The notes below the pieces were generated by a model. It saw nothing but the letters and a program-made list of their open reading frames with translations, searched no databases and had not been told where the DNA came from. Shown here in pieces: positions 19,061 to 35,783 of a DNA stretch of 64,000 bases (position 1 is its first letter; the number at the start of each line of letters is the position of its first letter). This stretch comes from Devosia equisanguinis. Its GTDB lineage: Bacteria; Pseudomonadota; Alphaproteobacteria; Rhizobiales; Devosiaceae. The position numbers and the translations under genes were made by a program. The stretch is taken from positions 186,001 through 250,000 of the forward strand of contig NZ_UZWD01000023.1 in the NCBI RefSeq assembly GCF_900631955.1, written 5' to 3'.

Positions 19061-19249
19061 TCAGGAGGCTTCCTTGGTTGGTCATTCTCGCGCGCGATGA
19101 TCTATCGGCGCGTGAGGATTATTCAGGGTCGCCGCGGTCAGGTTGACCCGCCACCAGAACATCACCGCTCACCCCGTGCTCCGAACAGCGCTCGGTTCGA
19201 CGGGTAGAGGCATCGCGTGTCAACAGAATGAAAGTTTCCAATTCTTCCA

Positions 19250-19389: not shown

Positions 19390-19410
19390 GGCTTCACCAA
19401 TCCTATCTAA

Positions 19411-19433
19411 TATAGTATAGTCCCCCATACCAT
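19411..19433 (+). promoter_or_regulatory. Probable RcnR/DmeR operator
   Basis: GTATAGTCCCCCATAC (19415-19430) has GTAT/ATAC arms around a C-tract, 27 bases before the ATG of the sensor gene. Sites of this form (A/T-rich inverted arms around a G/C tract) are known operators of RcnR-type repressors. It overlaps the likely promoter of the sensor-efflux pair. Confidence 0.65.
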
Positions 19434-19457
19434 AAGAAGTCGAGGTTAGCCATCGCC

Positions 19458-19730
19458 ATGTCTCACACCATCCGCGACAAAGAGAAGCTGATTGCGCGAG
19501 TGCGCCGTCTAAAAGGTCAGATCGAGGGGATCGAGCGCGCGCTTGAAGCCGAGAAACCCTGCGGCGAAATCCTTCGCCAGCTCGCTTCCGCCCGCGGCGC
19601 AATGAGCGGGCTGACTGCCGAGGTGATGGAGGATCATCTGCGCGAGCATGTGCTTCACGCCGAAACCGACGCCGACCGCAAGCAGGGCGGCGAAGAACTG
19701 ATCGAAGTCATCCGAACCTACATGAAGTAA
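19458..19730 (+). CDS. dmeR: RcnR/DmeR-type Ni/Co-responsive repressor
   Basis: A 90-residue all-helical CsoR/RcnR-family (DUF156) protein. The metal ligands of RcnR are all present at the canonical positions: His3, Cys35, His60 and His64. This points to a Ni(II)/Co(II) sensor rather than Cu (CsoR) or formaldehyde (FrmR). Known members bind a G/C-tract operator and release it on metal binding; a fitting operator lies just upstream. The efflux gene follows after 27 bases, so the pair forms a self-contained dmeRF-like unit. Confidence 0.85.
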   Translation: MSHTIRDKEKLIARVRRLKGQIEGIERALEAEKPCGEILRQLASARGAMSGLTAEVMEDHLREHVLHAETDADRKQGGEELIEVIRTYMK

Positions 19731-19757
19731 GCCGGCGTACCGGCGGGAGCTAAAGCC

Positions 19758-20711
19758 ATGTCCGAAGTCGACATCTCTATGCATACCCACGATCATAACT
19801 TCCTCGGGCGCGACCACCAGCGGAATGAATATCGGGTCTGGCTGGTCATCGCCCTGACCGCGTCAATGATGGTCGTCGAGATCGTTGCGGGTACGATCTA
19901 TGGTTCGATGGCGCTGGTGGCGGATGGCTGGCACATGTCCACCCATGCCGGCGCGATGCTGATCACCGCGCTGACCTACCTCTACGCACGCCGCCACGCC
20001 GATGATCGTCGCTTCACCTTCGGCACCGGCAAGCTAGGCGATCTTGGTGGTTTTGCCAGCGCCATCGTCCTGGCCCTGATCGCGCTGCTGATCGGCTGGG
20101 AGAGCCTGTTGAGGCTGGCCAATCCGGTGGAGATCAGCTTCGAGCAAGCGATCGCCGTCGCTGTGGTCGGACTCGCCGTCAATCTTGTCTGCGCCTGGCT
20201 GCTTCGGGACGATCATTCCCATCATCACCATGGGCACCATCATGCGCACGATCACGATCATGACCACCATGAGCATACACGCGACAACAATCTGCACGCC
20301 GCCTATCTGCATGTGCTGGCCGACGCGCTGACCTCGATCCTGGCCATCGTGGCGCTGTTGGCCGGGCGCAGCTATGGCTGGCTCTGGGCCGATCCCCTCA
20401 TGGGCGTTGTCGGCGCGCTGGTGATTGCGCGCTGGTCCTGGGGGCTGATCCACGATTCCGGCGCAGTCCTGCTAGATCGGCTTCCCGATGACGAGGATCT
20501 GCCCGCGGAAATCCGCGAGGCGCTGGAAACCGAGGCCGACCGGATCGCAGATCTGCATGTCTGGCAGGTCGGGCCAGGACACCACGCCGCCATCATATCG
20601 CTGGTGTCGAGCGCTCCCCGCGAACCGTCGGACTACAAGGCTCGCCTCGCGGAAATACACGAACTCTCCCACATCACCATCGAGGTCGAGCGGGTGAATG
20701 TCACCGCCTGA
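19758..20711 (+). CDS. dmeF: CDF family Co(II)/Ni(II) efflux transporter
   Basis: A 317-residue cation diffusion facilitator. Six membrane helices are visible; metal-site residues appear as ALVADGWHMSTHAG in TM2 and YLHVLADALTSILA in TM5. Between TM4 and TM5 is a long histidine/aspartate-rich loop (around residues 153-175, HSHHHHGHHHAHDHDHDHH) that binds metal. The cytoplasmic C-terminus contains DLHVWQVGPGHHAAI. Such DmeF proteins export Co(II) and Ni(II). Preceded by the dmeR-like gene and followed directly by the transposase. Confidence 0.9.
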   Translation: MSEVDISMHTHDHNFLGRDHQRNEYRVWLVIALTASMMVVEIVAGTIYGSMALVADGWHMSTHAGAMLITALTYLYARRHADDRRFTFGTGKLGDLGGFASAIVLALIALLIGWESLLRLANPVEISFEQAIAVAVVGLAVNLVCAWLLRDDHSHHHHGHHHAHDHDHDHHEHTRDNNLHAAYLHVLADALTSILAIVALLAGRSYGWLWADPLMGVVGALVIARWSWGLIHDSGAVLLDRLPDDEDLPAEIREALETEADRIADLHVWQVGPGHHAAIISLVSSAPREPSDYKARLAEIHELSHITIEVERVNVTA

Positions 20712-22260: not shown

Positions 22261-22339
22261 CCCCGCAACGCCCCCTTGTCAGGCGATCGTCCAGCGCGAT
22301 CTTCAAGGCGTAAGACGCCGAGAAGGAGAAAGCGCCCGA

Positions 22340-22597
22340 ATGCGCTTCCTGTTTCCTCATAGCCATGCCTTTCGGAAAGGCCGCGTCACCGTCGACGATG
22401 ATGGGAAGGCCGCGCCCGACTGCCTAGTCGAGTTCGGCGATGGCGTCACCGTCATCGCGGAATGGCGCGCCGAAGGCGATTCCATCCGTCTCACCGTTCC
22501 CGACTATCGCACCGCCCGCGGCACGCTCGTAACCGCGCGGAACTGGCGGCTCGCCAAGGGCCAAGATGGCCACTGGCGGTCCGAGCGCACTGCTTGA
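22340..22597 (+). CDS. Small conserved ICE protein, unknown function (85 aa)
   Basis: An 85-residue protein rich in beta-strand patterns (KGRVTVDDDGKAAPDCLVEF, VTVIAEWRAEGDSIRLTVPD). No known domain is recognised. AGAAGGAG precedes the ATG. It is the first backbone gene to the right of the transposon and its upstream region contains a small GGCGT-AAG-ACGCC hairpin. The frame and SD support a real gene; function is unknown. Confidence 0.6.
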   Translation: MRFLFPHSHAFRKGRVTVDDDGKAAPDCLVEFGDGVTVIAEWRAEGDSIRLTVPDYRTARGTLVTARNWRLAKGQDGHWRSERTA

Positions 22598-22673
22598 TCA
22601 CGCGCCGTTTCACTTGATCGCACCGCGCCAATCATGGCGCTGCCCGACCACACGATGCAGTGCCTGAACTATT

Positions 22674-22755
22674 AGAGTGAGAGTGCGGACCGGTTTTGCC
22701 GTGACGGGTAGAGAGCTGGAGGAGAGGCTTCCGGCGCCCGTCGCGGAGAGCCGCG
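22674..22755 (+). promoter_or_regulatory. Structured 5' leader, type 1 copy A (ardC-like gene)
   Basis: AGAGTGAGAG at the 5' end, then GACGGG (22703-22708) pairing with CCCGTC (22737-22742) around an inner imperfect stem CTGGAG / CTTCCGG with a purine loop. The SD GGAG starts 3 bases after the helix and the ATG follows. Related leaders occur before 25436, 28915 and, more diverged, 31437. Confidence 0.7.
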
Positions 22756-23709
22756 ATGTCCAGAAACGATCGCCGCGTTCGTGCCGGAGCCGACCGGGCG
22801 AACCTCTATGACGAAGTCACCGACAAGATCATCGCCGAGCTGGAAGCCGGCCGCGTGCCGTGGGTCCAGCCCTGGGGCACGTCGGCGGCCAAGGCCCCGC
22901 TTGGCCTGCCGCGCAACGCCGCAACTTCGCGAAGCTACAGCGGCATCAATGTCCTGATCCTCTGGGGAGCCGTCATCGAGCACGGCTTTCCCGGCCAGGG
23001 CTGGCTCACCTTCCGCCAGGCACTGTCGCTCGGCGGCCATGTCCGCAAGGGCGAGCGCGGCACAACCGTTGTCTATGCCGACCGCTTCACGCCGGAGGAC
23101 GAGAAGCGCCGCGCCTTCGAGGCTGGCGAGGAAGCGCAGGCGATCCCGTTCCTGAAGCGCTTCACGGTATTCAACACGGCGCAATGCGACGACCTGCCCG
23201 AAGACATCGAGGCGACCGCGCCGCCGCCGCCGCCCGGCATGATCGAGCCCCAGGTGGAGGCGCTCATCAAAGCGACCGGCATCGATTTCCGCATTGGCGG
23301 CAACCGGGCGTTCTACGTTCCGTCGCTCGACTACGTGCAAGTCCCTCCGCCGGCCGCCTATTTCGAGCCGATCAACTGGCACCGGACGGCCTTGCATGAA
23401 CTCGGTCACGCGAGCGGCGCAGAGCACCGGCTGAACCGGAACCTCTCAGGCTCCTTCGGCTCGAAGCTCTATTCGGTCGAGGAAATCACCGCCGAATTGA
23501 TCTCGGCCTATAGCTGCGCCGCGCTCGGGATCGTCCCGACCGTGCGCCATGCCGACTATATCGGCTCTTGGCTCGACGTCCTGCGCGAAGACAACCGCGC
23601 CATCGTCCGAGCCGCCTCCCAAGCCAGCAAGGCGGCCGACTGGCTTCTCAGCTTCCTGCCGGATGCCGGCAGCATCGACCAGAACGACGACGAGCGGGAG
23701 GCGGCGTGA
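22756..23709 (+). CDS. ardC: ArdC-like anti-restriction protein
   Basis: A 317-residue protein. Residues 15-130 form the DUF1738/ArdC N-terminal ssDNA-binding domain (LYDEVTDKIIAELEAGRVPWVQPW, SYSGINVLILW, GWLTFRQALSLGGHVRKGERGT). Residues 190-300 form a zincin-like metallopeptidase domain with HELGHASGAEHR (HExxH plus a third ligand His) and a downstream Glu-containing helix EEITAELISA. ArdC proteins protect incoming conjugative DNA from restriction in the recipient. The gene carries a type 1 structured leader and its stop overlaps the next ATG. Confidence 0.85.
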   Translation: MSRNDRRVRAGADRANLYDEVTDKIIAELEAGRVPWVQPWGTSAAKAPLGLPRNAATSRSYSGINVLILWGAVIEHGFPGQGWLTFRQALSLGGHVRKGERGTTVVYADRFTPEDEKRRAFEAGEEAQAIPFLKRFTVFNTAQCDDLPEDIEATAPPPPPGMIEPQVEALIKATGIDFRIGGNRAFYVPSLDYVQVPPPAAYFEPINWHRTALHELGHASGAEHRLNRNLSGSFGSKLYSVEEITAELISAYSCAALGIVPTVRHADYIGSWLDVLREDNRAIVRAASQASKAADWLLSFLPDAGSIDQNDDEREAA

Positions 23710-24656
23710 TGAACGCGCTCGCCTTTCCGGGTTTCGTCCCCGACCCCGCGCAGTCGGCCGACATCCGCCTGCGCGTCCTCAGCCTCGGCGCCGGCGTCCA
23801 GTCCACCACGCTGGCGCTGATGGCGGCGCATGGCGAAGTCGGCCCCATGCCCGATTGCGCCATCTTCGCCGATACCGGGTGGGAGCCGCAGGCCGTCTAT
23901 GACCATCTCGCCTGGCTGCGGTCGCCCAATGTCCTGCCGTTTCCCGTCCATATCGTCTCGGCCGGGGATCTACGCGCCGACCTCATCGCCGGCGCACAGG
24001 GCGAGCGCTGGGCATCCATTCCAGCCTTCACCCGCACCGTGACGCCTGCCGGGAGCGAGCTTCCCGTCTATGACGAGGATGAAAACGGCGATCTCGTCGT
24101 CGTCGGCTCCCGCATCGTGGCGACCGAGCGGGCCAGCATCGGCATGATCCGCCGCCAATGCACCGGAGACTACAAGATCGTGCCGATCAGGCGGAAAGTG
24201 CGCGAGCTGCTCGGCATCGCAGGGCGGCGCTCGCCCACGTCGCCGGTCGCCGAACAATGGATCGGGATTTCACTCGACGAGGCGCTTCGCATGAAACCCT
24301 CTTTCGAGAGCTGGCGGGTCAACCGCTGGCCCCTGATCGAGCGGGGCCTGACCCGACAGGATTGCCTGCGCTGGCTGGAACGGCATGATTATCCTCCGCC
24401 GCCCAAGAGCGCCTGCATCGGGTGTCCGTTTCATTCCGACGATCACTGGCGACAGATGCGCGATCATGATCCCGAAGCCTGGGCGGACGCCGTGTCGGTC
24501 GACGCCGCCATCCGCACCGGTTTCCGCGGCATCCGCGCCGAAGTCTATCTGCACCGCTCCGCCGTGCCGCTCGACCATGCCGACCTATCGACGGCCGGCG
24601 ACCGCGGCCAGCTCGATCTCTGGCCGAACGAGTGCGAGGGCATGTGCGGGGTCTGA
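23709..24656 (+). CDS. PP-loop / PAPS reductase-like protein
   Basis: A 315-residue protein of the adenine-nucleotide alpha-hydrolase superfamily. A PP-loop variant LSLGAGVQSTTLALM lies near residue 25, with CAIFADTGWEPQAVYDHL downstream, RRQCTGDYKIVPIRRKVRE in the middle and Cys pairs in ACIGCPFHSD and ECEGMCGV that could hold metal or a cluster. Relatives are called phosphoadenosine phosphosulfate reductases, but on phages and ICEs they are more likely nucleotide- or DNA-modifying enzymes (inference). Its ATG overlaps the ardC stop by one base, so the two are co-translated. Confidence 0.75.
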   Translation: MNALAFPGFVPDPAQSADIRLRVLSLGAGVQSTTLALMAAHGEVGPMPDCAIFADTGWEPQAVYDHLAWLRSPNVLPFPVHIVSAGDLRADLIAGAQGERWASIPAFTRTVTPAGSELPVYDEDENGDLVVVGSRIVATERASIGMIRRQCTGDYKIVPIRRKVRELLGIAGRRSPTSPVAEQWIGISLDEALRMKPSFESWRVNRWPLIERGLTRQDCLRWLERHDYPPPPKSACIGCPFHSDDHWRQMRDHDPEAWADAVSVDAAIRTGFRGIRAEVYLHRSAVPLDHADLSTAGDRGQLDLWPNECEGMCGV

Positions 24657-24771
24657 TTCCCTGAAAGCCGCAGATGCGCAAAGCCGCTTCTCCGGCTTTC
24701 CGGCTTTCCGGTTCTGCGGTTTTCCGCGTTTCCGGCTCGTCAGCTTGCAGCCTTGCGCTACGACGCTCAGC

Positions 24772-25074
24772 CTACCGGCCGTCCTTCATCAACCCTGCCC
24801 AGACAGCGAGAATATCGCCTTCGGCCGCGTTGTCCTCAGCGACAACCACGCTGAACACGCCGAGCGTGCCGGCGAACTCCTCCATATCCATCACGCCCCG
24901 TGCGTGAAGCATTGTCGCCAACAGCATCAGTGTCTTGCCCTGCGCGGTGATGACGGCCCGGTCCGCCTCGGAAAAGCGGACATGGCGGGCTGGCGACGCG
25001 CCCAGCCATCGGCGCAGAACGCGCGCCAAGTCCGCCCAGGGCGGATTTCTCAAGCCAGAAATCATAGCGTCCAT
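24772..25074 (-). CDS. Conserved ICE protein of unknown function (100 aa)
   Basis: A 100-residue, mainly helical acidic protein (WADLARVLRRWLGASPARHVRFSEADRAVITAQGKTLMLLATMLHARGVMDMEEFAGTLGVFSVVVAEDNAAEGDILAVWAGLM, read in parts). It is one of the few backbone genes on the minus strand. The ATG at 25074 is chosen because GGGG lies 8-11 bases upstream and the region before it has no protein-like character. No domain is recognised. The 361-base gap to the parB-like gene holds only the type 1 leader near its right end. Confidence 0.6.
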   Translation of the reverse strand: MDAMISGLRNPPWADLARVLRRWLGASPARHVRFSEADRAVITAQGKTLMLLATMLHARGVMDMEEFAGTLGVFSVVVAEDNAAEGDILAVWAGLMKDGR

Positions 25075-25353
25075 AGACAATTCCCCGCCGCCCCGACTGG
25101 CGCCGGGACGGTTGAACACGCGTGAACACTGGGAACCGCGCCCCACGTATTTCCCACGCCGGGCAAGCCCGACGCTGATGGGTATTCTATTCCGTGGGCC
25201 GCCCGACATAGTCGGTGACCCAGTGTTCAAACGCTTGATGCGATCGATGCGGTGTTCAAGCCGCAGGCGATGCAATCCCTATGGCACAGGAAGACAGTCC
25301 TGAACATCGCCGTTCCGTTCTCGCCCCTGGCCAGACGACAGGGTCCGACCAGC

Positions 25354-25435
25354 AGAGTGAGAGGGAGGTGGGGATTTTCGTGACGGGTTCGGGTCGAGAG
25401 AGAGGCTCTCGGCGCCCGTCGCGGAGACTACCACG
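25354..25435 (+). promoter_or_regulatory. Structured 5' leader, type 1 copy B (parB-like gene)
   Basis: AGAGTGAGAG, GACGGG (25382-25387) pairing with CCCGTC (25415-25420), and a perfect inner stem CGAGAG (25395-25400) / CTCTCG (25406-25411) around an AGAGG loop. GGAG follows the helix. The inner stem differs in sequence from the other copies but still pairs, which supports a real RNA structure. Confidence 0.75.
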
Positions 25436-27583
25436 ATGGCTACTGCCGCCCAGAAAATCATCCTGTCGCCTTCCCGCGACATCCCCTTCAACAAGCTCGT
25501 GCTCAGCCAATCGAATGTCCGACGCGTCAAGGCCGGCGTCTCGGTCGAGGAACTGGCCGAGGACATCGCCCGCCGAGGCACGCTCCTCCAGAGCCTCAAT
25601 GTCCGCCCGGTCCTCGACGCCAGGGGCGATGAGACCGACATGTATGAAGTTCCCGCCGGCGGTCGCCGCTATCAGGCGCTCGCCATCCTCGTGAAGCAGA
25701 AGCGTCTCGCCAGGACCGCGCCTGTGCCCTGCGTCGTGCGTGATCCCTCCACGTCGATTCTCGCCGAGGACGACAGCCTCGCCGAAAACACCCAGCGCGT
25801 GCCGCTGCATCCTCTCGATCAGTTCCGAGCCTTCTATGACATGCGCCGCAAGGGCATGAGCGAGGAGGAGATCGCTGCGGCCTTCTTCACGACCGCGCAG
25901 GTGGTGAAGCAGCGCCTGCGTCTGGCCTCTGTCTCGCCCACGCTCCTCGACATCTATGCCGAGGACGGCATGAAGCTCGAAGAGCTGATGGCCTTCACCG
26001 TCAATCCCGACCATGCCCGCCAGGAGCAGGTCTGGGAGACGGTCCAGACCTCCCACAATCGCCAGCCCTGGTATATCCGCCAGTTGCTCACTGAAACCAC
26101 GGTGCCGGCCACCGACAAGCGCGCCCTGTTCATCGGCATCGAAACCTATGAGCAGGCGGGCGGCAGCGTGCTGCGCGATCTCTTCCAGACCGATGGAGGC
26201 GGCTGGCTTCAGGACCCCGCGCTTCTCGACCGCCTGGTCGCGGAGCAGCTCAAGACCCTCGCCGAGGAAATCGCCGCCGAGGGCTGGAAGTGGATCACCG
26301 TCGATACCGATCTGCCCTATGGCTTCGATCAGGGGCTGCGGGCGCTCGACTTCACCCTCGTCGATCTGAACGATGACGAGCGCGCGGCCCGAGAAGCCCT
26401 GCGTGAGGAATACGAACGGATCGAGGCTGAATACTCGGAAGCCGATGAGCTGCCGGACGAGATCGACCAGCGTCTCGGCGAGATCGAGACGGCGCTCGAA
26501 GCCTTCGAGAAGCGCCCGGTCATCTACGATCCGGCCGACATCGCGCGTGGCGGCGTCTTCATCAGCGTCGACCGCAATGGCGCGCCCGTCGTCGATCGCG
26601 GCTATGTGCGCCCGGAGGACGAGACGCCGGTCGGCGTCGAGGACCCCGACGGCGAGGCCGAAGCCACCGGTACCGAAGTCGCGGCATCCGGCACCGTTCA
26701 GCGCGCCGTCATCACCATCGGCGGCCAGTCGGCCGAACCGGAGGATGACGACGAGGAAGACGTCATCAAGCCGCTGCCCGAACGGCTCGTTACCGAGCTG
26801 ACTGCGCACCGCACCCTGGCGCTCCGCGATGCCGTGGGCGCCAATCCCCAGGTCGCGTTTACCGCCTTGCTGCACAAGCTCGTGCGCGACACCTTCCAGC
26901 GGACGGCCACCTCCGGCGCCAGCCTGCAGGCGTCCGTCAATCACGTCTTCTTCCGCGAACAGGGCAAGGATCTCGCCGAGACGGCCTATGCCAAGTCCGT
27001 CATCCAGCGGCATGAGGACTGGAAGGCTGACCTACCAGCCGATGAGGATGCGCTGTGGGACTGGCTCGCCGTGCTCGACGACGCCAGCCGCATGGCGCTG
27101 CTCGCGCATTGCGTCAGCTATGGGATCAACGCCCTCTATGAACGGCCCAATCCCTACAGCGGCAGCGGCGTGTCGCAGTCGGGTCTCGACCGGCGTATGG
27201 CAGAGGCCGATCGACTGGCCCGCGCCACCGGCCTCGACATGGTGGACGTCGGCTTCCGACCCACGGTCGAGAACTATCTCGGCCGCGTCACCAAGCCCCG
27301 CATTCTTGCGGCCGTCCGCGAAGGCGCGGGCGAACGCGCGGCCCAGCTCATCGACCACTTGAAGAAGGGCGACATGGCCAAGGAGGCCGAACGCCTGCTG
27401 GCCGACAGTGGCTGGCTACCGGAGCCGCTGCGCCTGATCGACCATGACGAGCCGACCACGTCCGATACCTCGGAAGGCGAGGCCGAGACGGCGCTCCCAG
27501 CCTTCCTTGCCGGTGAGGACGAGGACGAGGAAACCGCCGAAGACCCGGAAGCCGAGGCGCCAGCGATGATCGCCGCGGAATGA
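25436..27583 (+). CDS. Large ParB/RepB-like nuclease-fold protein
   Basis: A 715-residue protein. Residues 15-120 are the ParB N-terminal (sulfiredoxin-fold) domain with VRRVKAGVSVEELAEDIARRGTLLQSLNVRPV, the GGRRYQAL box and EDDSLAENTQRVPLHPLDQFRAF. Residues 130-190 form the ParB HTH (SEEEIAAAFFTTAQVVKQRLRLASVSP). The long C-terminal part, with acidic linkers at about 335-365 and 440-450 and an acidic tail, is much larger than in partition proteins (about 300 residues). Such large ParB-like proteins are common in conjugative elements and may act in stability or DNA binding. A type 1 leader precedes it. Confidence 0.85.
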   Translation: MATAAQKIILSPSRDIPFNKLVLSQSNVRRVKAGVSVEELAEDIARRGTLLQSLNVRPVLDARGDETDMYEVPAGGRRYQALAILVKQKRLARTAPVPCVVRDPSTSILAEDDSLAENTQRVPLHPLDQFRAFYDMRRKGMSEEEIAAAFFTTAQVVKQRLRLASVSPTLLDIYAEDGMKLEELMAFTVNPDHARQEQVWETVQTSHNRQPWYIRQLLTETTVPATDKRALFIGIETYEQAGGSVLRDLFQTDGGGWLQDPALLDRLVAEQLKTLAEEIAAEGWKWITVDTDLPYGFDQGLRALDFTLVDLNDDERAAREALREEYERIEAEYSEADELPDEIDQRLGEIETALEAFEKRPVIYDPADIARGGVFISVDRNGAPVVDRGYVRPEDETPVGVEDPDGEAEATGTEVAASGTVQRAVITIGGQSAEPEDDDEEDVIKPLPERLVTELTAHRTLALRDAVGANPQVAFTALLHKLVRDTFQRTATSGASLQASVNHVFFREQGKDLAETAYAKSVIQRHEDWKADLPADEDALWDWLAVLDDASRMALLAHCVSYGINALYERPNPYSGSGVSQSGLDRRMAEADRLARATGLDMVDVGFRPTVENYLGRVTKPRILAAVREGAGERAAQLIDHLKKGDMAKEAERLLADSGWLPEPLRLIDHDEPTTSDTSEGEAETALPAFLAGEDEDEETAEDPEAEAPAMIAAE

Positions 27584-27742
27584 CGCCAAACCCCGGCGGG
27601 CGGTCGAAGCCGCCCCGCCGTCTTCATTTTCAGCTTCAAGGCCCGGCGATCCGTCGTCGGACCTTTTTTCATTTTCAGGGAACTCCCACCTCCGACATTT
27701 ATCTACCAGCCGGCCGTCAAATGGCGGTAGCCGGTTCCCCTC

Positions 27743-27955
27743 TCAGTGGGATTTCCGCTCGTAGACGTGATTGAGGTTATCGGCTTGGTGCTGGAGGCTC
27801 CTCGCCACCGTTGCAGCCGCGGCCCGGTTTGGAAACGCCCCTGTTGTCATCCCGTTCAGGCTTACGCACCACCCATCGGGCTTCTCAATGACCGTATAAC
27901 GCCGTCGCTCGCCACCGATATTGGCGGACTTACCCGTCAAATAGCCACTCATCAT
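27743..27955 (-). CDS. Small DUF2188-like protein (70 aa)
   Basis: From the ATG at 27955 this reads MMSGYLTGKSANIGGERRRY, TVIEKPDGWCVSLNGMTTGAF, PNRAAAATVARSLQHQADNL and so on, a pattern like DUF2188 proteins (Tyr-x-Val strand, Gly-Trp, then a helix of repeated alanines). The start overlaps the stop of a 49-codon frame upstream (ATGA), indicating a coupled pair on the minus strand. Function unknown. Confidence 0.5.
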   Translation of the reverse strand: MMSGYLTGKSANIGGERRRYTVIEKPDGWCVSLNGMTTGAFPNRAAAATVARSLQHQADNLNHVYERKSH

Positions 27956-28101
27956 GAGCGTCGATCGCCTTGTTGGTTCGGTGTGTCGGGCTTCGTCCAA
28001 ATCCCGAAGGCCGCTCCGATAACCGTCATCGCCATACGCCAGGATGATCGGCTGCTCTCTTTCGTCTTCATCGTTGCCCGCAAAAGTGCATTTCTGCTCA
28101 T
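27952..28101 (-). CDS. Tiny protein coupled to the DUF2188-like gene (49 aa)
   Basis: A 49-codon frame beginning MSRNALLRATMKTKESSRSS and containing a short hydrophobic stretch MAMTVIGAAFGIW; GAGG lies 8 bases before the ATG. The stop overlaps the next ATG (ATGA). The coupling and SD are the only support; composition alone would not prove it coding. Confidence 0.35.
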   Translation of the reverse strand: MSRNALLRATMKTKESSRSSWRMAMTVIGAAFGIWTKPDTPNQQGDRRS

Positions 28102-28504
28102 GGTTTCACCTCAACAAGAGGCCGCATCAAAGCTTCGAGCGCGTATGAATTCCATCCTGACGCAACCGGCCGCTCATAGTATTCTCATCAATTCGACCGG
28201 TGGACCTCGGCGCCATGCAACGCCATAGCGGGCCAAGCTCGTGCCCGGACAGCTCAGACCCTCAAACATCTTCGCTTCACCATTAGGCGGGAAGTGCGGG
28301 GCAATGGCATCCCTTTAGATTGATGATCCGGCTGCTGTCTGATGCCGGACACCATCCCGCTTCCATTCGCAAACCTTGGTCCGATCCGTCTCCTTATCAA
28401 TCAACCCGCAAGGGGTCGGCTTACGCGCGCGTGCCGCCCTCGGGGATTCGGAAAAGGTCCGAACGCCCGAGGGTGATTGCAGAGCCGGTCAGACACTTCG
28501 GGCG
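28102..28504. other. Intergenic stretch without recognisable genes
   Basis: Between the minus-strand small genes and the 54-aa gene I see no convincing coding frame or repeat; the right end merges into the type 2 leader at 28505-28554. Confidence 0.5.
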
Positions 28505-28554
28505 CCTGTCGCGCGGGGGATGGTCCCCCGCCTCCCAAGACAGGAGCCGGAACC
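28505..28554 (+). promoter_or_regulatory. Structured 5' leader, type 2 copy E
   Basis: CCTGTC (28505-28510) pairs with GACAGG (28539-28544) around the perfect hairpin GCGGGGGATGGTCCCCCGC (8-bp stem, TGG loop). The SD AGGAG overlaps the 3' strand of the outer helix, so folding would hide it. The GGGATGGTCCC core recurs before ssb. Confidence 0.65.
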
Positions 28555-28719
28555 ATGTCCTATGCAGATGCCACCGCTTTCGCCGCAAGCCTAGCCACCA
28601 CGCTGATGGTTTCGATCATCGTCTTCCAGGCCGGGGACGGCACTCACGGCGCCATGCCCGCCAACGAATTCGATGGCGACGAAGAAATGGTCAGGCTGGA
28701 ACTTGATCCCTTCGGCTGA
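28555..28719 (+). CDS. Small conserved ICE protein (54 aa)
   Basis: A 54-residue protein starting MSYADATAFAASLATTLMVS with a hydrophobic stretch near residues 10-25 and an acidic second half (NEFDGDEEMVRLELDPFG). I recall near-identical short proteins from similar ICEs. CAGGAG precedes the ATG and a structured leader lies upstream. Function unknown; it may be membrane-associated. Confidence 0.65.
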   Translation: MSYADATAFAASLATTLMVSIIVFQAGDGTHGAMPANEFDGDEEMVRLELDPFG

Positions 28720-28831
28720 GGCGCGACAGCGCCTCACCCCGACGGCTCGGAGCGCAAGATCGCGTCCGGGCCTTCAGCGCTGCGCTACCGCTCATCGCCG
28801 GCAGCGGCACCGGCTCATGCCCCGGCAAGGG

Positions 28832-28914
28832 AGAGTGAGAGTGCGGACGGGTTTTCCGTGACGGGTTGGTTGCCGGAGAGAGAGCTCCCGGCGCCCGTCC
28901 TGGAGCATCCTGCG
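28832..28914 (+). promoter_or_regulatory. Structured 5' leader, type 1 copy C
   Basis: AGAGTGAGAG (28832-28841), GACGGG (28860-28865) pairing with CCCGTC (28894-28899), inner stem CCGG-AG / CTCCCGG around an AGAGAG loop, then GGAG and ATG. It shares the CGTGACGGGT and GGCGCCCGTC blocks with copies A and B. Confidence 0.75.
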
Positions 28915-29472
28915 ATGGCCCTTGCACCTCAAACCACCTTCGCCCCGATCGGCGACATCCTCGCGCATCAGATCCTGCCCCGGCTGCGCCTTGCCGCGAA
29001 GCTGCCGCTGCGCATCACCTGCATCGGCACGGCCCGCTATGTCGGCACCGACGAGGCCGACAGCTTCGACCGCAGCGTCTTTCTCGGCGACCGCCCGTCG
29101 CTGGAGAACGCCACCAGCTTCGCGGCCGTTTCGGTCAGGCGCGGCGGCATTGGCGTGAGACAAGATAAGACGCTGCGCTTTCATCCACGCTTCGCCGTCA
29201 TCCAGGACAACGATCAGAATCTGGTTCTGGCCGGCGAAATCCGCGCTGGGATCATTCTCTGGCAACAGCCCGTCGCCAGCGACGGCGAGGCCCGCCGGAT
29301 CGTGACCGAAGCCAGCCGCCTGCGCGGACTGGCTTTCGCCGCCTCCGGCCGGGGCGAGCAGCGTGCGGCCCGCAATCATCGCCACCAGGCCGGCCTGCTC
29401 GAAGCACGCCTGGTCGACCCCTTCTGGCGCGAGGCCGCCGCCGATCTGCTCCGGCTGCCTCAGGCCGCCTGA
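28915..29472 (+). CDS. Conserved ICE protein of unknown function (185 aa)
   Basis: A 185-residue protein with PIGDILAHQILPRLRLAAKLP at the start, a central strand-rich region (LRITCIGTARYVGTDEADSFD, FAVIQDNDQNLVLAGEIRAGIILW) and a helical C-terminus rich in arginine. No catalytic motif is recognised. ATG 28915 lies directly after a type 1 leader with GGAG. It heads a run of five same-strand small genes that precede the methylase/helicase gene. Confidence 0.65.
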   Translation: MALAPQTTFAPIGDILAHQILPRLRLAAKLPLRITCIGTARYVGTDEADSFDRSVFLGDRPSLENATSFAAVSVRRGGIGVRQDKTLRFHPRFAVIQDNDQNLVLAGEIRAGIILWQQPVASDGEARRIVTEASRLRGLAFAASGRGEQRAARNHRHQAGLLEARLVDPFWREAAADLLRLPQAA

Positions 29473-29544
29473 TCCCATCCCCCGATTTCCACCCATCCGA
29501 CCCGGCGCTTCGCTTCGCCGGGTTCTCACCTATGGAGTTTTCCC

Positions 29545-29946
29545 ATGCCGAAATTCGTCGTCAGCAAAGGCCACGACGCCTTCGTCTATTACGAAACCGT
29601 CCTAGAGGCCGACACGCCCGAAGAGGCGCGAAGTCTCGTCCGGAGCGTTCATTACGAAGGCGCATGGCTCCCCACCGGCTATGTGCAGGAGTTCGACGAT
29701 TACGAGATCGACGAGCATAGCGGCGTTCGCCTCCTCGAAGACGGTGAAGCCGTAGAGGCCTTCCTGACCATCGGCGTCACCGCCCAGGAGCGCGACGCCT
29801 TGCTGGCGGGGCTGCGCCTCCTCCAGCTCGCCCTTGGGCGCGGCGATCTCGAACCTGCGCTCGAAAACATCGTCACCAATGACGGCGCGCATACCGGCCT
29901 CGATCCGACTCGTATCGACGCTCTGTGCGAACGCATCAACGTCTAG
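29545..29946 (+). CDS. Conserved ICE protein of unknown function (133 aa)
   Basis: A 133-residue acidic protein with MPKFVVSKGHDAFVYYETVL followed by EADTPEEARSLVRS, which looks like a small beta-hairpin-plus-helix domain, then QERDALLAGLRLLQLALGRGDLEPALENIVTNDG in the C-terminal half. No family is recognised. TATGGAGTTTTCCC provides the SD. It is the second gene in a run of small genes. Confidence 0.6.
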   Translation: MPKFVVSKGHDAFVYYETVLEADTPEEARSLVRSVHYEGAWLPTGYVQEFDDYEIDEHSGVRLLEDGEAVEAFLTIGVTAQERDALLAGLRLLQLALGRGDLEPALENIVTNDGAHTGLDPTRIDALCERINV

Positions 29947-29955
29947 GTGGTGGCG

Positions 29956-30150
29956 ATGTATGCGACCTACCTGCGCCTCGACATCCTGGTCTGGGACAGC
30001 CAGCGCGCCGTAATCCGCGCCGCGCGCTGCAAGCTGGCTTTATCGGCCCGGCGAGATCCCGCACTGCGGGGCGCGCGAAAGCGGTTCTATCGCGACATGC
30101 TGCGCCACCATGCCGATGCCCAGCGGCTTGTGGCGCAGTTCCGCCTCTGA
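29956..30150 (+). CDS. Small basic ICE protein (64 aa)
   Basis: A 64-residue, arginine-rich helical protein (LRLDILVWDSQRAVIRAARCK, ARKRFYRDMLRHHADAQRLVAQFRL) starting 9 bases after the previous stop. The ATG at 29956 has GGTGG upstream; a GTG at 29947 is an alternative start. High positive charge suggests nucleic-acid contact, which is inference. Confidence 0.5.
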   Translation: MYATYLRLDILVWDSQRAVIRAARCKLALSARRDPALRGARKRFYRDMLRHHADAQRLVAQFRL

Positions 30151-30224
30151 CGCTTCCGCACCGCGTCCATCCCTTGAACCTCGCCCGGCCATCGCGCCGG
30201 GCTTTCTCGTTTCAGGAGCCTGAC

Positions 30225-30641
30225 ATGGCCAACTACTTTACCCATTTCTCGTGCCTGCTTGACGTCGGCACGCCCGATAATGCCGCCCGAGCGCTTGACC
30301 TCTACAACAAGCTTTCGGAGGAAGGCGCTTCCGACGAACCGCCGTCCGAGGGGTTTCTCCTATCGATCCAGCCGGAGCACGGGGGTGCCCGGCTCTGGAT
30401 GCGCGATGACCAGACAGGCGATCCCGAGCGTCTGCTCCGGTTCGTGAAGATCTGCGCGACCGAGTTCCGCCTCAGTGGTCTCTGGGGCTTCCAATACGCC
30501 AACACCTGCTCGCGGCCACGCCTCGACGGTTTCGGCGGCGGCGCTCATGTCCTCGACCTCGCCACCGGCGAGACGGTGGCATGGACCTACACCGATGGCT
30601 GGCTCGCCCAGGTTCTCGATGGAGGCGGCTCAGATGAGTAA
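30225..30641 (+). CDS. Conserved ICE protein of unknown function (138 aa)
   Basis: A 138-residue acidic protein (MANYFTHFSCLLDVGTPDNA, FLLSIQPEHGGARLWMRDDQTGDPERLLRFVKIC, GFQYANTCSRPRLDGFGGGAHVLDLATGETVAW). The pattern of short strands suggests an alpha/beta fold, but no family is recognised. CAGGAG precedes the ATG. The next gene starts inside its last codons, so the two are coupled. Confidence 0.6.
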   Translation: MANYFTHFSCLLDVGTPDNAARALDLYNKLSEEGASDEPPSEGFLLSIQPEHGGARLWMRDDQTGDPERLLRFVKICATEFRLSGLWGFQYANTCSRPRLDGFGGGAHVLDLATGETVAWTYTDGWLAQVLDGGGSDE

Positions 30642-31278
30642 GGTCATCGAAACCACGGTCTATCAGCTCGACGAGCTTGCTGACGCCGCCAAGGAGAAGG
30701 CCCGCGATTGGTATCGCGAAGGCGGCTTCGACTACGACTGGTATGATGCCGTTTACGAGGATTTCCAACAGATCGCGGAAATCCTCGGCCTTCGGCTGAA
30801 AACCCGCAGCATGCGGCTCAACGGCGTCGGCTCCCGGCAGAAGCCCTGCATCTGGTTTCGGGGGTTCTGGAGCCAGGGCGACGGCGCCTGCTTCGAGACC
30901 TTCTATTCCTACCGGAAAAACGCCCCGCGCCGGATCAGGGAACACGCGCCGCAAGACGCCGCACTGCACCGCATCGCCGATGCACTTCAGGCGGTCCAGC
31001 GGCGTAATTTCTACCAGCTTCGCGCCGAGGCGAGCCATCGCGGTCACTACTACCACGAATACTGCATGACGGTCTCGGTCGAGCGCGACAGTCCAACCTA
31101 TCAGGATATGACGGCCGATGCGGAAGACGCCGTGGCCGATGCGCTACGCGACCTGGCCCGTTGGCTCTATCGGCAGCTCGAACGTGAACACGAATATCTC
31201 ACCTCGGACGAGGCCGTCGATGAGGTCATCGCCACCAACGAATACACGTTCACGGCAACGGGCCGTCGCTTCGGCTGA
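30634..31278 (+). CDS. Conserved ICE protein of unknown function (214 aa)
   Basis: A 214-residue protein beginning MSKVIETTVYQLDELADAAK, followed by EKARDWYREGGFDYDWYDAVYEDFQQIAEILGL. Aromatic residues are frequent in FRGFWSQGDGACFETFYSYRK and HRGHYYHEYCMTVSVE. I have seen very similar proteins labelled antitoxin-like on ICEs, but nothing here proves that. It overlaps the preceding gene by 8 bases and GGAGG lies upstream. Confidence 0.65.
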   Translation: MSKVIETTVYQLDELADAAKEKARDWYREGGFDYDWYDAVYEDFQQIAEILGLRLKTRSMRLNGVGSRQKPCIWFRGFWSQGDGACFETFYSYRKNAPRRIREHAPQDAALHRIADALQAVQRRNFYQLRAEASHRGHYYHEYCMTVSVERDSPTYQDMTADAEDAVADALRDLARWLYRQLEREHEYLTSDEAVDEVIATNEYTFTATGRRFG

Positions 31279-31342
31279 ACCAGGCAAGCGTCCTGCCATT
31301 CGGCAGGGCGCTTTTTGCATGCCAGCCACGGCCCACCTTTCG

Positions 31343-31436
31343 AGAGTCAGAGGAGGCCGGGACGGGTTTGAGCCTGTGCGGTCGAGAGAGAGCGCTGCGC
31401 GGCTCAATCCTGTCCTACTCTCCCGAGGTCTCCTCC
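31343..31436 (+). promoter_or_regulatory. Structured 5' leader, type 1-like copy D (methylase/helicase)
   Basis: AGAGTCAGAG at the 5' end, then GGACGGGTTTGAGCC (31360-31374) pairs with GGCTCAATCCTGTCC (31401-31415) over 15 positions with one mismatch and one G-T pair, enclosing a GAGAGAGAGCG purine loop. It is longer and more diverged than copies A-C but keeps the order: purine block, helix with GACGGG, purine loop. Confidence 0.6.
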
Positions 31437-34400
31437 ATGAACATGATTTCCGCATCTGCGGCGGCATCGGTCGCCGGGCCGCTTCCGCTTGTCCCCGACA
31501 GCCATGCCGCCACGTCCGTCTTTTCGGCGGCAGGTCTTCTTCTGCCTCACCTCGAGCGCGGCCAGCGCATCGACGCCGCCACGCTTCGCAGCGCGATGGA
31601 AACCGCCTTCGGCGCGTCCGATACCGCTGGCGCCTGGGACTGGAAAACCGCCTATGACGCCTGCGAGGCCGCGATCGTCCTGTTCCTGCGCAAGTACGGA
31701 AAGGCGCTTTTCCGTAAAGCCGGTTCGCCAGCCGATAGCCTGCCGCTGCTGACGCGGATCGCCGGGCTGCTGCCGACCCATACACGCCGCTCGGAGGAGG
31801 CGCAGACCTTCCAGCAATTCTCCACCCCGATCCCGCTGGGGCTGGCAGCGGCGACCGCGGCCGCCATCACGCCCGCCGACCGGGTTCTGGAACCCTCGGC
31901 CGGGACCGGACTGCTCGCCATCCTGGCCGAGATCGCTGGCGGCGCGCTCGTCCTCAACGAGCTGGCCGAAATGCGCGCCGGTCTTCTTACTTCCCTCTTT
32001 CCCGCCTTGTCCGTCGCGCGTTTCGACGCGGCGCAGATCGACGATCACCTCGATCCCGCCCTGGTCCCGTCCGTGGTGCTGATGAACCCGCCGTTCTCGG
32101 CGCTGGCGAATGTCCAGGGCCGCGTCGCCGATGCCGCCTTCCGCCACGTCGCTTCGGCGCTTGCGCGCCTTGCGCCCGGCGGGCGGCTGGTGACGATCAC
32201 CGGCGCGAGCTTCGCCCCCGATAATCCTGCCTGGACCCCGGCCTTCGTCCGGCTGCAGGAGCGCGGTCGCGTGGTCTTCTCCGCCGCAGTCGATGGTTCT
32301 GTCTATGCCAAGCATGGCACGACGATCGATACCCGGATCACCGTCATCGACAAGCTGCCCGCCGACGATCCGGCAGTCTTCCCGACCTCTCCCGGCGCCG
32401 CACCGGATGCCGCCACCCTGATGGTCTGGATCGGCGCGAGCCTGCCCGCGCGTCAGCTTGTCGATCCTTCAGTCGTTGTTCCGGTTGCCGCAGCGCCTAC
32501 GCCTCGCACCGTGCGCGGCTATATCGCCGCCACGGCGAAAGCCGCCCGCCCGGCGCCGCAGACCGAACCGGAAGCCGCACCGCTCGACTATGAGATCGTC
32601 GATTGGCAGCCGGCCGAGGGCGGCCACATCACCGATGCCATCTATGAGGAATACGCGCTTCAGGTCATCCGTATTCCCGGCGCCCAGCCTCATCCAACCC
32701 AGCTCGTCCAGTCGGCGGCGATGGCGAGCGTCGCCCCGCCGAAGCCCAACTACCGGCCGCATCTGCCGAAGACCATTCTCGGTCTTCTGTCCGACGCGCA
32801 GCTTGAGACCGTCATCTATGCCGGCCAGGCCCATGCCGACCATCTCGCCGGGGCCTGGACCGTCGACGAGACCTGCGATGTGGTCAGCGCGGCGGCCGAG
32901 GACGCCAAGAACGCCGTCCGCTTCCGGCAAGGCTTCTTCGTCGGTGACGGCACCGGCGTCGGCAAGGGTCGGGAATCCGCCGCCATCATCCTCGACAACT
33001 GGATGCAGGGCCGCCGGAAGGCCGTCTGGATCTCCAAATCCGACAAATTGCTGGAAGACGCACAACGCGACTGGTCTGCGCTCGGCATGGAGCGCCTCCT
33101 GGTTACGCCGCTGTCGCGCTTCCCGCAGGGCAAGCCCGTGACGCTGCCCGAAGGCATCCTTTTCACGACCTATGCCACGCTACGCTCCGACGACCGCGGC
33201 GATAGGGTTTCCCGCGTCAAGCAGATCGTCGAATGGTTGGGCGAGGATTTCGATGGAGTGATCATCTTCGACGAGGCGCATTCGATGCAGAACGCCGCAG
33301 GCGGCAAGGGAGAACGGGGCGATGTCGCCGCCAGCCAGCAGGGCCGAGCCGGGCTTCGCCTCCAGCACGCCCTGCCGGATGCCCGCATCGTCTATGTCTC
33401 CGCGACCGGCGCCACTACGGTCCACAACCTCGCCTATGCCCAGCGCCTTGGCCTTTGGGGCGGCGAGGATTTCCCGTTCGCCACGCGGGCCGAATTCGTC
33501 GAGGCCATCGAGGGCGGCGGCGTCGCGGCGATGGAGGTTCTGGCCCGCGACATGCGCGCCCTCGGCCTCTACACCGCCCGGTCGCTGTCCTTCGCCGGCG
33601 TCGAATACGAGCTGGTCGAGCATGAGCTGACCCCGGAACAGACCCGCATCTACGATGCCTATGCCGGGGCCTTCGCCATCATTCACAACAATCTGGATGC
33701 GGCGATGGAAGCGGCCAATATCACCGGCAGCACCGGCACCCTGAATCGGCAGGCGAAATCCGCCGCGCGCTCGGCCTTCGAGTCGGCCAAGCAGCGGTTT
33801 TTCGGCCACCTCCTGACCAGCATGAAAACCCCGACGCTGCTCCGCTCCATCGCACCCGATCTGGAGGCGGGCCATTCGGCCGTCATCCAGATCGTCTCGA
33901 CCGGCGAGGCGCTTATGGAACGCCGGCTGGCCGAGCTGCCGACCGAGGAATGGAACGACGTCCGCGTGGACATCACCCCGAGGGAATATGTCCTGGACTA
34001 CCTTGCCCATTCTTTCCCGGTGCAGCTCTACGAGCCGTTCACCGACTCGGAGGGCAATATGTCGTCGAGGCCCGTCATGCGCGACGGCCAGCCCGTCGAA
34101 AGCCGTGAAGCGGTCGCCCGCCGCGACGAGCTGATCGCAAAGCTCGCCAGCCTGCCGCCGGTCCCCGGTGCGCTGGACCAGCTCATCCAGCATTTCGGCA
34201 CCGATACCGTGGCTGAAGTGACGGGCCGGTCGCGGCGCATCATCCGCAAGGCTGGCAAGGGCGTCACTGTTGATCGCCTTGTCGTCGAAAACCGCGCAGC
34301 TTCGGCCAACCTGGCCGAAACCCAAGCGTTCATGGACGACGGCAAGCAGGTTCTGGTGTTCTCCGACGCCGGCGGCACAGGCCGCAGCTATCATGCCGAA

Positions 34401-35783
34401 CTGTCGGCCCGGAACACGCGGTTGCGCGTCCATTACCTGCTCGAAGCCGGATGGAAGGCCGATACTGCGATCCAGGGGCTTGGCCGAACGCACCGGACCA
34501 ACCAGAAGCAAGCGCCCCTGTTCCGGCCGATCACCACGAACGTCAAAGCCGAAAAGCGCTTCCTCTCGACCATCGCCCGCCGTCTCGACACCCTGGGCGC
34601 GATCACGCGCGGCCAGCGACAGACCGGCGGTCAGGGACTGTTCAGACCGGAAGATAACCTGGAGTCCCATTACGCACGCGACGCGCTGCGCCAGCTCTAT
34701 CTCCTGCTGGTGCGCGGTAAGGTCGAGGGATGCTCGCTCGACCGCTTTGAGAGCGCCACCGGCTTGAAGCTGATGGACTCCAACGGCATCAAGGATGACC
34801 TCCCAGCCATCACGACCTTCCTGAACCGGCTGCTGGCCTTGACGATTGAGCTTCAGGGCGTGCTGTTCACCGCCTTCGAGCAACTTCTGACGGCGCGCAT
34901 CGAGGGCGCCATCGCGTCGGGCACCTATGACGCCGGGCTGGAGACGCTGCGAGCGGAGAGCTTTGTCGTCACCGACCGCCAGACGATCTATACGCACCCG
35001 CGCACCGGCGCCCAGACCCGCCTGCTGACCATCACCGAGCGCAAGCGCAACCATCCGGTCACGCTGGCGGAGGCCATAGGCAACCTGGACGATCCGCGCG
35101 CGGTCCTGTTGGTCAACGAGCGGTCGGGCCGCGCCGCCGTGCAGGTTCCGACCACCAGCGTCATGCTGGACGATGGCGAGATCGAGCGCCGTGTCCGGCT
35201 GATCCGGCCGATGGAAGCGCACAACATCCCGGTCAAGACCATGCCCGAGACCCATTGGGTCGAAGCCGACCGGGACGCCTTCGCCTCTGCCTGGAATGCC
35301 GAGATTGCCGAGGTGCCGGAGTTTTCCGACAGCACCCTGCATATGGTGACAGGTCTCCTGTTGCCTATCTGGAAGCGGTTGCCGAACGAATCCACCCGCG
35401 TCTATCGGCTCCAGACCGATGCTGGCGAGCGGATCATCGGCCGCCGCGTTTCGCCTGCCTGGGTTGCCCACGCGACCGCGACCGGCGTCGCGTCGATCAC
35501 GCCGGAGGATGCCTTCACCGCCCTTATGGACGGAAAGACGATCCTCGATCTCGCCGAGGGCCTTCAGCTTCGCCGGGTCCGCGTCATGGGCGCGCTGCGC
35601 ATCGAACTCACCGGCTTCACCGACACGATGCGCCAGCGCCTCACGGCCTATGGCCTCTATCACGAGATCATCTCGTGGAAGCTGCGCTTCTTCGTGCCGG
35701 TGGATGCTCAGGGGCCGGTAATCATCGGCAAGCTCTTCGACCGCTGGCCGGTCGAACGCATCGGCGAACGGGAGGCCGCATAA
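31437..35783 (+). CDS. Strawberry-notch-like helicase with N6-adenine methylase domain
   Basis: A 1448-residue fusion. Residues 120-330 form a methyltransferase domain (VLEPSAGTGLLAILAEIAGG as the AdoMet loop, MNPPFSAL as the NPPF catalytic motif). Residues 430-760 form an SF2 helicase domain of the strawberry-notch type: Walker A GDGTGVGKGRESAA, FTTYATLR, the DEAHSMQN box and VYVSATGAT. A helicase C-terminal domain follows (DDGKQVLVFSDAGGTGRSYHA, GLGRTHRTNQ as motif VI). Such proteins are common on ICEs and plasmids and probably remodel or methylate entering DNA. A structured leader precedes the ATG; the Toprim gene follows with no gap. Confidence 0.85.
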   Translation: MNMISASAAASVAGPLPLVPDSHAATSVFSAAGLLLPHLERGQRIDAATLRSAMETAFGASDTAGAWDWKTAYDACEAAIVLFLRKYGKALFRKAGSPADSLPLLTRIAGLLPTHTRRSEEAQTFQQFSTPIPLGLAAATAAAITPADRVLEPSAGTGLLAILAEIAGGALVLNELAEMRAGLLTSLFPALSVARFDAAQIDDHLDPALVPSVVLMNPPFSALANVQGRVADAAFRHVASALARLAPGGRLVTITGASFAPDNPAWTPAFVRLQERGRVVFSAAVDGSVYAKHGTTIDTRITVIDKLPADDPAVFPTSPGAAPDAATLMVWIGASLPARQLVDPSVVVPVAAAPTPRTVRGYIAATAKAARPAPQTEPEAAPLDYEIVDWQPAEGGHITDAIYEEYALQVIRIPGAQPHPTQLVQSAAMASVAPPKPNYRPHLPKTILGLLSDAQLETVIYAGQAHADHLAGAWTVDETCDVVSAAAEDAKNAVRFRQGFFVGDGTGVGKGRESAAIILDNWMQGRRKAVWISKSDKLLEDAQRDWSALGMERLLVTPLSRFPQGKPVTLPEGILFTTYATLRSDDRGDRVSRVKQIVEWLGEDFDGVIIFDEAHSMQNAAGGKGERGDVAASQQGRAGLRLQHALPDARIVYVSATGATTVHNLAYAQRLGLWGGEDFPFATRAEFVEAIEGGGVAAMEVLARDMRALGLYTARSLSFAGVEYELVEHELTPEQTRIYDAYAGAFAIIHNNLDAAMEAANITGSTGTLNRQAKSAARSAFESAKQRFFGHLLTSMKTPTLLRSIAPDLEAGHSAVIQIVSTGEALMERRLAELPTEEWNDVRVDITPREYVLDYLAHSFPVQLYEPFTDSEGNMSSRPVMRDGQPVESREAVARRDELIAKLASLPPVPGALDQLIQHFGTDTVAEVTGRSRRIIRKAGKGVTVDRLVVENRAASANLAETQAFMDDGKQVLVFSDAGGTGRSYHAELSARNTRLRVHYLLEAGWKADTAIQGLGRTHRTNQKQAPLFRPITTNVKAEKRFLSTIARRLDTLGAITRGQRQTGGQGLFRPEDNLESHYARDALRQLYLLLVRGKVEGCSLDRFESATGLKLMDSNGIKDDLPAITTFLNRLLALTIELQGVLFTAFEQLLTARIEGAIASGTYDAGLETLRAESFVVTDRQTIYTHPRTGAQTRLLTITERKRNHPVTLAEAIGNLDDPRAVLLVNERSGRAAVQVPTTSVMLDDGEIERRVRLIRPMEAHNIPVKTMPETHWVEADRDAFASAWNAEIAEVPEFSDSTLHMVTGLLLPIWKRLPNESTRVYRLQTDAGERIIGRRVSPAWVAHATATGVASITPEDAFTALMDGKTILDLAEGLQLRRVRVMGALRIELTGFTDTMRQRLTAYGLYHEIISWKLRFFVPVDAQGPVIIGKLFDRWPVERIGEREAA

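Follow-up and report, generated by a model that had tools for sequence, protein, structure and literature searches.

The window analysed here, a stretch of 64,000 nucleotides (nt) from the Devosia equisanguinis contig NZ_UZWD01000023.1 (positions 186,001 to 250,000), holds a conjugative element with an integrase, RepA, ParA, DUF2840, an SLT protein, TraG, and TrbE- and TrbL-type proteins. Its RlxS-like relaxase matches below the curated cut-off, and by gene order we take the element to be Tn4371-like. Four plus-strand genes in the window are each preceded by a structured leader (coordinates are window positions). The ardC gene (22756–23709), whose product carries the Pfam domains ArdcN and MPTase-PolyVal (zincin metallopeptidase), has its leader at 22674–22758. 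The gene for a ParB-like protein of 715 amino acids (aa; 25436–27583), with ParB_N and ParB-type NCBIfam matches below the curated cut-offs and ParB-like PHROGs, follows a leader at 25354–25436, and that for a 185-aa protein without a Pfam, NCBIfam or PHROGs family (28915–29472) follows one at 28832–28915. The fourth leader, at 31343–31439, precedes a 1448-aa DNA methylase/strawberry-notch helicase (31437–35783; AAA_34 and Helicase_C_4, with a DNA methyltransferase PHROGs match over residues 128–310). The initial annotation, which a model had made from the sequence, called these genes unlinked; that was too strong, as they are separate genes, yet lie within about 9 kb.

The leaders share sequence that recurs exactly. 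The string AGAGTGAGAG is found without mismatch at 22674, 25354 and 28832 and with one mismatch at 31343. The two-arm pattern GACGGGTN{10,30}GGCGCCCGTC matched three times in the window, compared with 0.00 times in 100 dinucleotide shuffles, so the shared strings are not due to chance, and the repeats that had been proposed before three genes are borne out. A close form of this pattern had three matches in the whole genome (4.1 Mb, 79 contigs), and its backwards version had none. The leaders at 22674, 25354 and 28832, which are mutually 66–70% alike, form one family, which we named type I; the one at 31343 belongs to a longer, related type, named type II.

For a wider sample of type I, we used the search pattern AGAGTGAGAGN{10,24}CGTGACGGG, which fixes the 5' box and one arm of the outer stem (P1) and leaves the inner stem (P2) and the 3' side free. 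The exact 5' pattern was present in at least 118 genome stretches of a genome contig collection; the 80 titles listed belong to alphaproteobacterial groups or unplaced Proteobacteria, bar one archaeal title (L033, not leader-like). Among the matches listed, 137 were parsed (the three of the window included), 128 were kept, and 72 non-redundant leaders formed alignment A1. The nine that were dropped comprise three that are not leader-like (L033, L043 and L097), two that are cut or have no ATG within reach (L076 and L089), and four apparent leader variants missed by the filter (L021, L055, L069 and L085). The covariance model R1 (84 positions) was built on A1, and R2 (97 positions) represents type II. 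The window leaders, all of them training sequences, score 88.4, 84.3 and 71.7 bits with R1, in the order of their positions, and 90 bits with R2. The best R1 matches at the type II leader reach only 7.2 and 6.3 bits; the type I model does not find the fourth, longer version claimed before the methylase/helicase gene, which stands as a related leader.

RNAalifold folded A1 into a single hairpin with 11 pairs in P1 and 7 pairs in P2. In the ardC leader (plus strand), a 5' box, AGAG-TG-AGAG (22674–22683), is single-stranded in the consensus. It is followed by the P1 5' arm CCGTGACGGGT (22699–22709, A1 columns 26–36), the 5' arm of P2, the covarying helix (22716–22722, columns 45–51), the apical loop AGAGG (22723–22727, columns 52–56), the P2 3' arm (22728–22734, columns 57–63) and the P1 3' arm GCCCGTCGCGG (22736–22746, columns 67–77), whose last two G open the Shine–Dalgarno (SD) sequence GGAG (22745–22748). 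The outer stem of the initial annotation therefore pairs as proposed, with 11 pairs (CCGTGACGGGT/GCCCGTCGCGG) rather than six. The SD, which had been placed two to three bases beyond the helix, in fact overlaps it, because in type I two bases of GGAG, its first two G, are paired within P1; the strand concerned (columns 73–77) pairs with CCGTG in P1. The fold z-scores of the leaders at 22674, 25354, 28832 and 31343 were −4.65, −4.06, −1.65 and −3.25, so that the third copy, whose inner stem is irregular and bulged, is unremarkable when taken alone.

The evidence that carries this fold is covariation. Across A1, 97.1% of 1285 cells were paired, and sliding the partner by 1–3 columns reduced pairing to 38–45%. 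Double-change cells numbered 74, compared with 25.5 in shuffles, none of which (0/500) reached 74. They occurred in all seven P2 pairs and in no P1 pair; the count of seven pairs with a double change is itself less telling, as 60 of the 500 shuffles matched it. The earlier claim that the inner stem changes its sequence yet keeps pairing thus held up in a statistical test on a larger alignment, with the compensatory change located in P2. To remove inheritance by gene, we retested covariation inside single gene families, excluding five unlabelled rows of the 72. The ArdC leaders alone (n = 23) gave 31 double-change cells against a maximum of 22 in 500 shuffles, and the DUF932-like leaders (n = 19) gave 18 against a maximum of 13; the 185-aa leaders (n = 3) gave 3 against 3. 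By corrected mutual information over 3486 column pairs, four P2 pairs stood among the top 22 (ranks 4, 6, 15 and 19), and the others were mostly neighbouring columns or near the start codon, with some neither. P1 says little about covariation because it is nearly invariant. Immediately before the SD GG, 41 of the 72 leaders have GC, 20 have AT, 6 have GT, 2 have AC and 3 have some other dinucleotide, and all four named forms can pair with the constant GU of CCGUG. A further hairpin, P0, formed by the spacer with CCGTG, paired no better than shuffles and was dropped.

The same alignment also speaks to the strand that folds. On the coding strand of P2, A-C cells fell to 10 against 50.1 expected from column shuffles, whereas G-U cells numbered 79 against 117.6 and Watson–Crick cells 392 against 299.2. 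A-C is thus depleted and G-U better kept, so it is the mRNA strand that folds; a folded template strand or a duplex palindrome is disfavoured, since neither would prefer G-U over A-C on the coding strand. Taken together, these sequence comparisons make a conserved RNA fold well supported. The leaders also hold a fixed position and orientation 5' of several gene families, which, like the covariation on the coding strand, is expected of a cis-regulatory leader.

Outside the helices, two elements vary least, the box AGAG-NN-AGAG at the 5' end and the AGAG of the apical loop; both persist while the stems change. Of the 72 leaders in A1, 62 have AGAG as their loop. We also examined 49 of the 56 type I matches that R1 recruited outside the source genome (52 matches were listed, and three of them were removed, one as a copy of type II and two as antisense; the seven unexamined are two in genome G361 and one each in G066, G175, G051, G260 and G331). 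The exact box was present in 31 of these 49, with TG, GA, GG, TC, TT, TA or CG as the middle dinucleotide, and AGAG lay within the loop region in 42. In a search of the window only for an antisense RNA to the box, AGAGNNAGAG was found five times, all on the plus strand and four of them the leaders themselves, and this candidate was rejected; CTCTCNCTCTC occurred in the window at chance level.

With R1, 59 type I matches were found in 27 of 385 sampled Alphaproteobacteria genomes (source genome included), and 20 of the 27 carry 2–4 copies. All 34 positives in a phylum sample of 398 genomes, for which the number outside the Alphaproteobacteria is not given, were Alphaproteobacteria. Among plasmids, blastn with one leader copy returned 145 records, 88 of them predicted to be conjugative, and among viral contigs the pattern matched five, three of which carry strong leaders. 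Leaders stand on the IMG/VR viral-class contigs L183, L185 and L186, which may be phage-plasmids or misclassified conjugative elements.

The genes behind the leaders are few in kind. Of the 128 parsed leaders, 122 run directly into one of four gene families (window included): ArdC (51), ParB-like (34), DUF932-like (29) and the 185-aa protein (8); the remaining six are three single cases and three too short for assignment. BLAST clustering had merged the ParB-like and DUF932-like families, through one fused frame (L034) in the links inspected, and the split of 34 and 29 was made by signature. The DUF932 label itself comes from a weak Pfam match that, at 18.2 bits, stays below the cut-off of 23. 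Behind the 49 model-recruited leaders, read by eye, we found 23 ParB-like, 11 ArdC and 9 DUF932-like genes (43/49), with six of other kinds, among which are an AlpA gene and a gene whose product is related to the 185-aa protein. The nearest-neighbour leader shares the gene family in 57 of 72 cases (shuffled mean 18.6). This family-wise likeness and the 66–70% likeness of the window copies suggest that type I leaders are old and separately maintained rather than recent duplicates. Two observations stand beside these counts. In L034, a type I leader (3056–3142) precedes a frame that fuses a DUF932-like start to a ParB-like part, as if the DNA between two marked genes had dropped out. In L211, L212 and L213, weak type I-like leaders precede a 120–128 aa protein about 0.45 kb upstream of a ParB-like leader.

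Type II leaders share the kind of box found in type I, with CCGGGACGGG where type I has CCGTGACGGG; their stem is longer and their loop rich in AGAG. They also covary, with 15 double-change cells against 6.4 in shuffles (0/500). For these alignments, L179 and L180 were excluded from A2 and five more from A3/A4 for homogeneity. The methylase/helicase protein is present in 18 of the 27 leader-positive genomes, at 19 loci, and R2 matches 18 of them: the 12 training loci (81–103 bits) and six others (L175–L179 and L181; E 0.0063 or better), with L180 unmatched. Overall, R2 was positive in 17 of the 385 genomes, 16 of which are also R1-positive (Fisher p 2.7e-20). Other R2 copies precede genes for RadC (L204), Antirestrict PF03230 of the KlcA/ArdB family (L205) and DUF6878 (L206 and L201); L207 is a near copy of L206.

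The helicase gene itself occurs in 24 of the 385 genomes, 18 R1-positive and 6 R1-negative (Fisher p 1.5e-19). In the six R1-negative genomes, none of the nine helicase loci matched type II at E 0.1. In one of them, L233, a weak R1 match (20 bits) lies about 0.9 kb upstream of the helicase gene; on inspection, it is a hairpin before an SD, without the AGAG box and without an AGAG loop. Whether the helicase gene is marked thus follows whether other marked genes are present, as an element-encoded reader would give. Lineage is a confounder here, because the helicases of the six R1-negative genomes are more divergent. In three leader-negative genomes (L234, L235, L236, L239, L240 and L241), another G-rich, hairpin-like stretch precedes the methylase/helicase gene. 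Its end, close to the ATG, takes forms such as CACGGAGACCGCCC, and it may represent a second class of leader.

Could these leaders set when ribosomes begin on the genes behind them? In 39 of the 72 leaders, a run of five pairs is possible between the SD strand and the sequence that ends in the start codon (for instance, CGCGG with CCGCG or CATGG with CCATG). The mean best run of 3.96 exceeded 3.55 when tails were exchanged and 3.15 when the tail letters were shuffled (0/2000 each). The predicted SD–AUG pairing, which would bury both the SD and the AUG, is supported as one that can form in place of the P1 foot. Because the SD strand has this alternative partner, we propose that the leaders control translation initiation, with one state for each of the two pairings open to that strand. 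A putative factor would read the AGAG motifs, so that marked genes are switched together, plausibly upon entry into the recipient, and it may be encoded by the element itself. The leaders, of about 85–100 nt, end in the ribosome-binding sites (RBSs) of genes that lie on conjugative elements of alphaproteobacteria and, judged by their identity, serve establishment and anti-restriction. That the leaders coordinate early-transfer genes, as the initial annotation proposed, would rest on gene identity and on the literature. We consider it fairly probable that they form a family of cis-acting leaders controlling translation initiation, through which an AGAG-reading factor switches the marked genes together. 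More tentatively, and with some doubt, they may constitute an RNA regulon in which one element-encoded AGAG factor reads both box and loop and switches the translation of unrelated genes on arrival in the recipient, and in which a gene gains or loses the mark along with the other marked genes of the element. For plasmid R388, ArdC is reported to have been needed in the recipient and not in the donor when E. coli conjugated with Pseudomonas putida as recipient (PMC7213743).

Several results weigh against this proposal. The SD–AUG pairing reaches only two pairs in 16 of the 72 leaders, and its signal partly follows gene family and is to that extent confounded. No covariation supports a competing upstream hairpin (columns 11–15 with 26–30), and P1 changes are one-sided, so that this helix rests on G-U-compatible changes. 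The ParB-like leaders alone gave 4 double-change cells against a shuffle maximum of 4 and thus no support. Because the first pattern fixed the box and one P1 arm, their invariance in A1 was given from the start, as was part of the pull of R1; having been trained on fixed-box sequences, R1 favours box-bearing copies. Of the 49 model-recruited leaders, 18 have no exact box, most of these being one base off, 7 have no AGAG in the loop region, and the three weak members in L211, L212 and L213 lack both. Finally, no trans-acting factor was found.

The main rival to translational control is a role in transcription, in which the leader would pause, terminate or protect RNA polymerase instead of acting on the ribosome. 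It holds this place because the 9.3 kb around the leaders contain no promoter-like site and 6 of 18 type II leaders lie near terminator-like hairpins. A simple consensus scan of both strands over 22300–31600 found 0 sigma-70-like promoters (1.0 expected), and no conserved promoter was present in the 70 nt upstream of 71 leaders. A conserved upstream promoter was accordingly rejected. The terminator-like hairpins stand 21–62 nt upstream of the type II box, compared with 0–4 such leaders in ten shuffles. The ops and put sites are other elements that act on RNA polymerase. EGeRS1 of the Bacillus plasmid pLS20 is reported to block readthrough (PMC8708921). On the other hand, type I shows no terminator excess (7/124 against 3–11 in shuffles), and what follows the hairpin is an SD and an AUG, not a U tract. 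We regard a transcriptional role as unlikely.

The remaining rivals fare worse against the same alignment. A conserved leader in which a helix overlaps the SD and another pairing is available would also suit a metabolite riboswitch; the fold, however, is one hairpin without a junction, the conserved unpaired bases are short AGAG repeats, and the downstream genes have no evident common metabolite, which makes this reading very unlikely. That the entering strand carries a single-stranded DNA (ssDNA) promoter of the Frpo kind seems far-fetched, even if the gene content resembles that of leading-region genes (PMC11541004). For this, the template strand must fold, yet coding-strand A-C (template G-T) stands at one fifth of expectation; the hairpin ends in an SD, and 22300–31600 contains no −35/−10-like pair. 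Imperfect inverted repeats in several copies per element might also be double-stranded operators or palindromes like the repetitive extragenic palindromic (REP) sequences, but the tolerance of G-U and not of A-C, the covariation, the single orientation and the fixed distance to start codons leave this idea with next to no credence.

Turning to the proteins and the neighbouring DNA, solved relatives of the ParB-like protein by sequence were only Spo0J/ParB, for its N-terminal part, and the DUF932-like protein had none up to E 0.1. The predicted fold of the 185-aa protein had a mean predicted local distance difference test score (pLDDT) of 64.3, too low for a fold search. When PADLOC was applied to three leader-bearing proteins (ArdC left out), only the methylase/helicase matched, as mad2, over its methylase part. 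The stretch 23709–24653 encodes a PAPS-reductase-like protein with weak likeness to SspD, an apparent relative of which stands directly behind a type I leader in L036. Upstream of the ParB-like leader, a sub-threshold match to sRNA-Xcc1 (25094–25207, minus strand; 33.9 bits against a gathering cut-off of 53, E 0.0062) was seen. Farther upstream, an ABC-three-component-like gene pair (12309–15294; CTD10 and DUF2326, PADLOC PDC-M68A and PDC-M68B) is candidate defence cargo, and a chromate transporter with a cation-efflux gene (17861–20708) is metal-resistance cargo.

How do mobile elements time anti-restriction and establishment genes without a later cost? The published answers that we met invoke ssDNA promoters, repressors or, in Bacillus, one structured element that is uncharacterised. 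A compact leader that recurs across the alphaproteobacteria in front of at least eight gene families (ArdC, KlcA/ArdB-type, RadC, ParB-like, DUF932-like, methylase/helicase, DUF6878 and AlpA among them) would allow a direct test of timing at the RNA level and offers a handle for finding the regulator. A gene behind such a leader becomes a candidate establishment gene, as is the case for the DUF932-like, DUF6878, 185-aa and ParB-like proteins. We call the family new in the sense that it has no Rfam 15 match and no description in the literature searched. No Rfam 15 family was over its cut-off in the window. The literature search, which mostly covered only top-ranked papers, found no account of the family, and the main text of a 50-genome RNA survey makes no mention of leader-related terms (PMC11109978).

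Among known systems, the radC RNA (RF01754) had been suggested as a relative. This motif precedes anti-restriction, methylase, integrase and radC-type genes. The kinship did not hold, as there was no cross-match in either direction and the folds differ. A 40-bit test gave no radC RNA match in the window, and none appeared up to E 10 in 22600–31600; in the source genome, none exceeded the cut-off (best 18.6 bits), and there was none in 18 loci at gathering or in 20 loci up to E 0.01. It was present in 1 of the 385 genomes, with four copies in G260, where the R1 leaders lie on another contig, and neither R1 nor R2 matched these four loci better than E 0.15 and 0.22, respectively. The radC model has 149 positions and several hairpins and, in the four copies inspected, no AGAG box, whereas our leaders are single hairpins. 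The likeness lies in context: type II leaders precede a RadC gene and a KlcA/ArdB-type gene, and anti-restriction, methylase and RadC genes, with no integrase, are present among the genes examined behind leaders. This striking overlap in gene content suggests that unrelated RNAs serve similar genes.

Other systems were compared through their published descriptions. STAXI elements are repeated pseudoknots near anti-restriction and DNA-handling genes (PMC2864571), whereas the leaders are single hairpins. The Frpo/ssi ssDNA promoters carry −35 and −10 elements in a folded strand before leading-region anti-defence genes (PMC11541004); the leaders resemble them as structured sequence before anti-restriction genes and differ in the 0 sigma-70-like sites of 22300–31600. 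The nearest published idea that we met is EGeRS1 of pLS20, in which structured repeats lie directly before the RBSs of five establishment operons, ardC included (PMC8708921). That article describes no constitutive promoter, a block of readthrough and a predicted RNA or ssDNA fold, and gives no evidence of its authors' own for action as RNA or ssDNA. Like EGeRS1, the leaders are structured repeats immediately before the RBSs of several putative establishment genes. Compared by description, EGeRS1 belongs to Bacillus and is about 325–600 nt long with many branches, whereas the leaders belong to alphaproteobacteria and form, within about 85–100 nt, a single hairpin that covaries on the coding strand.

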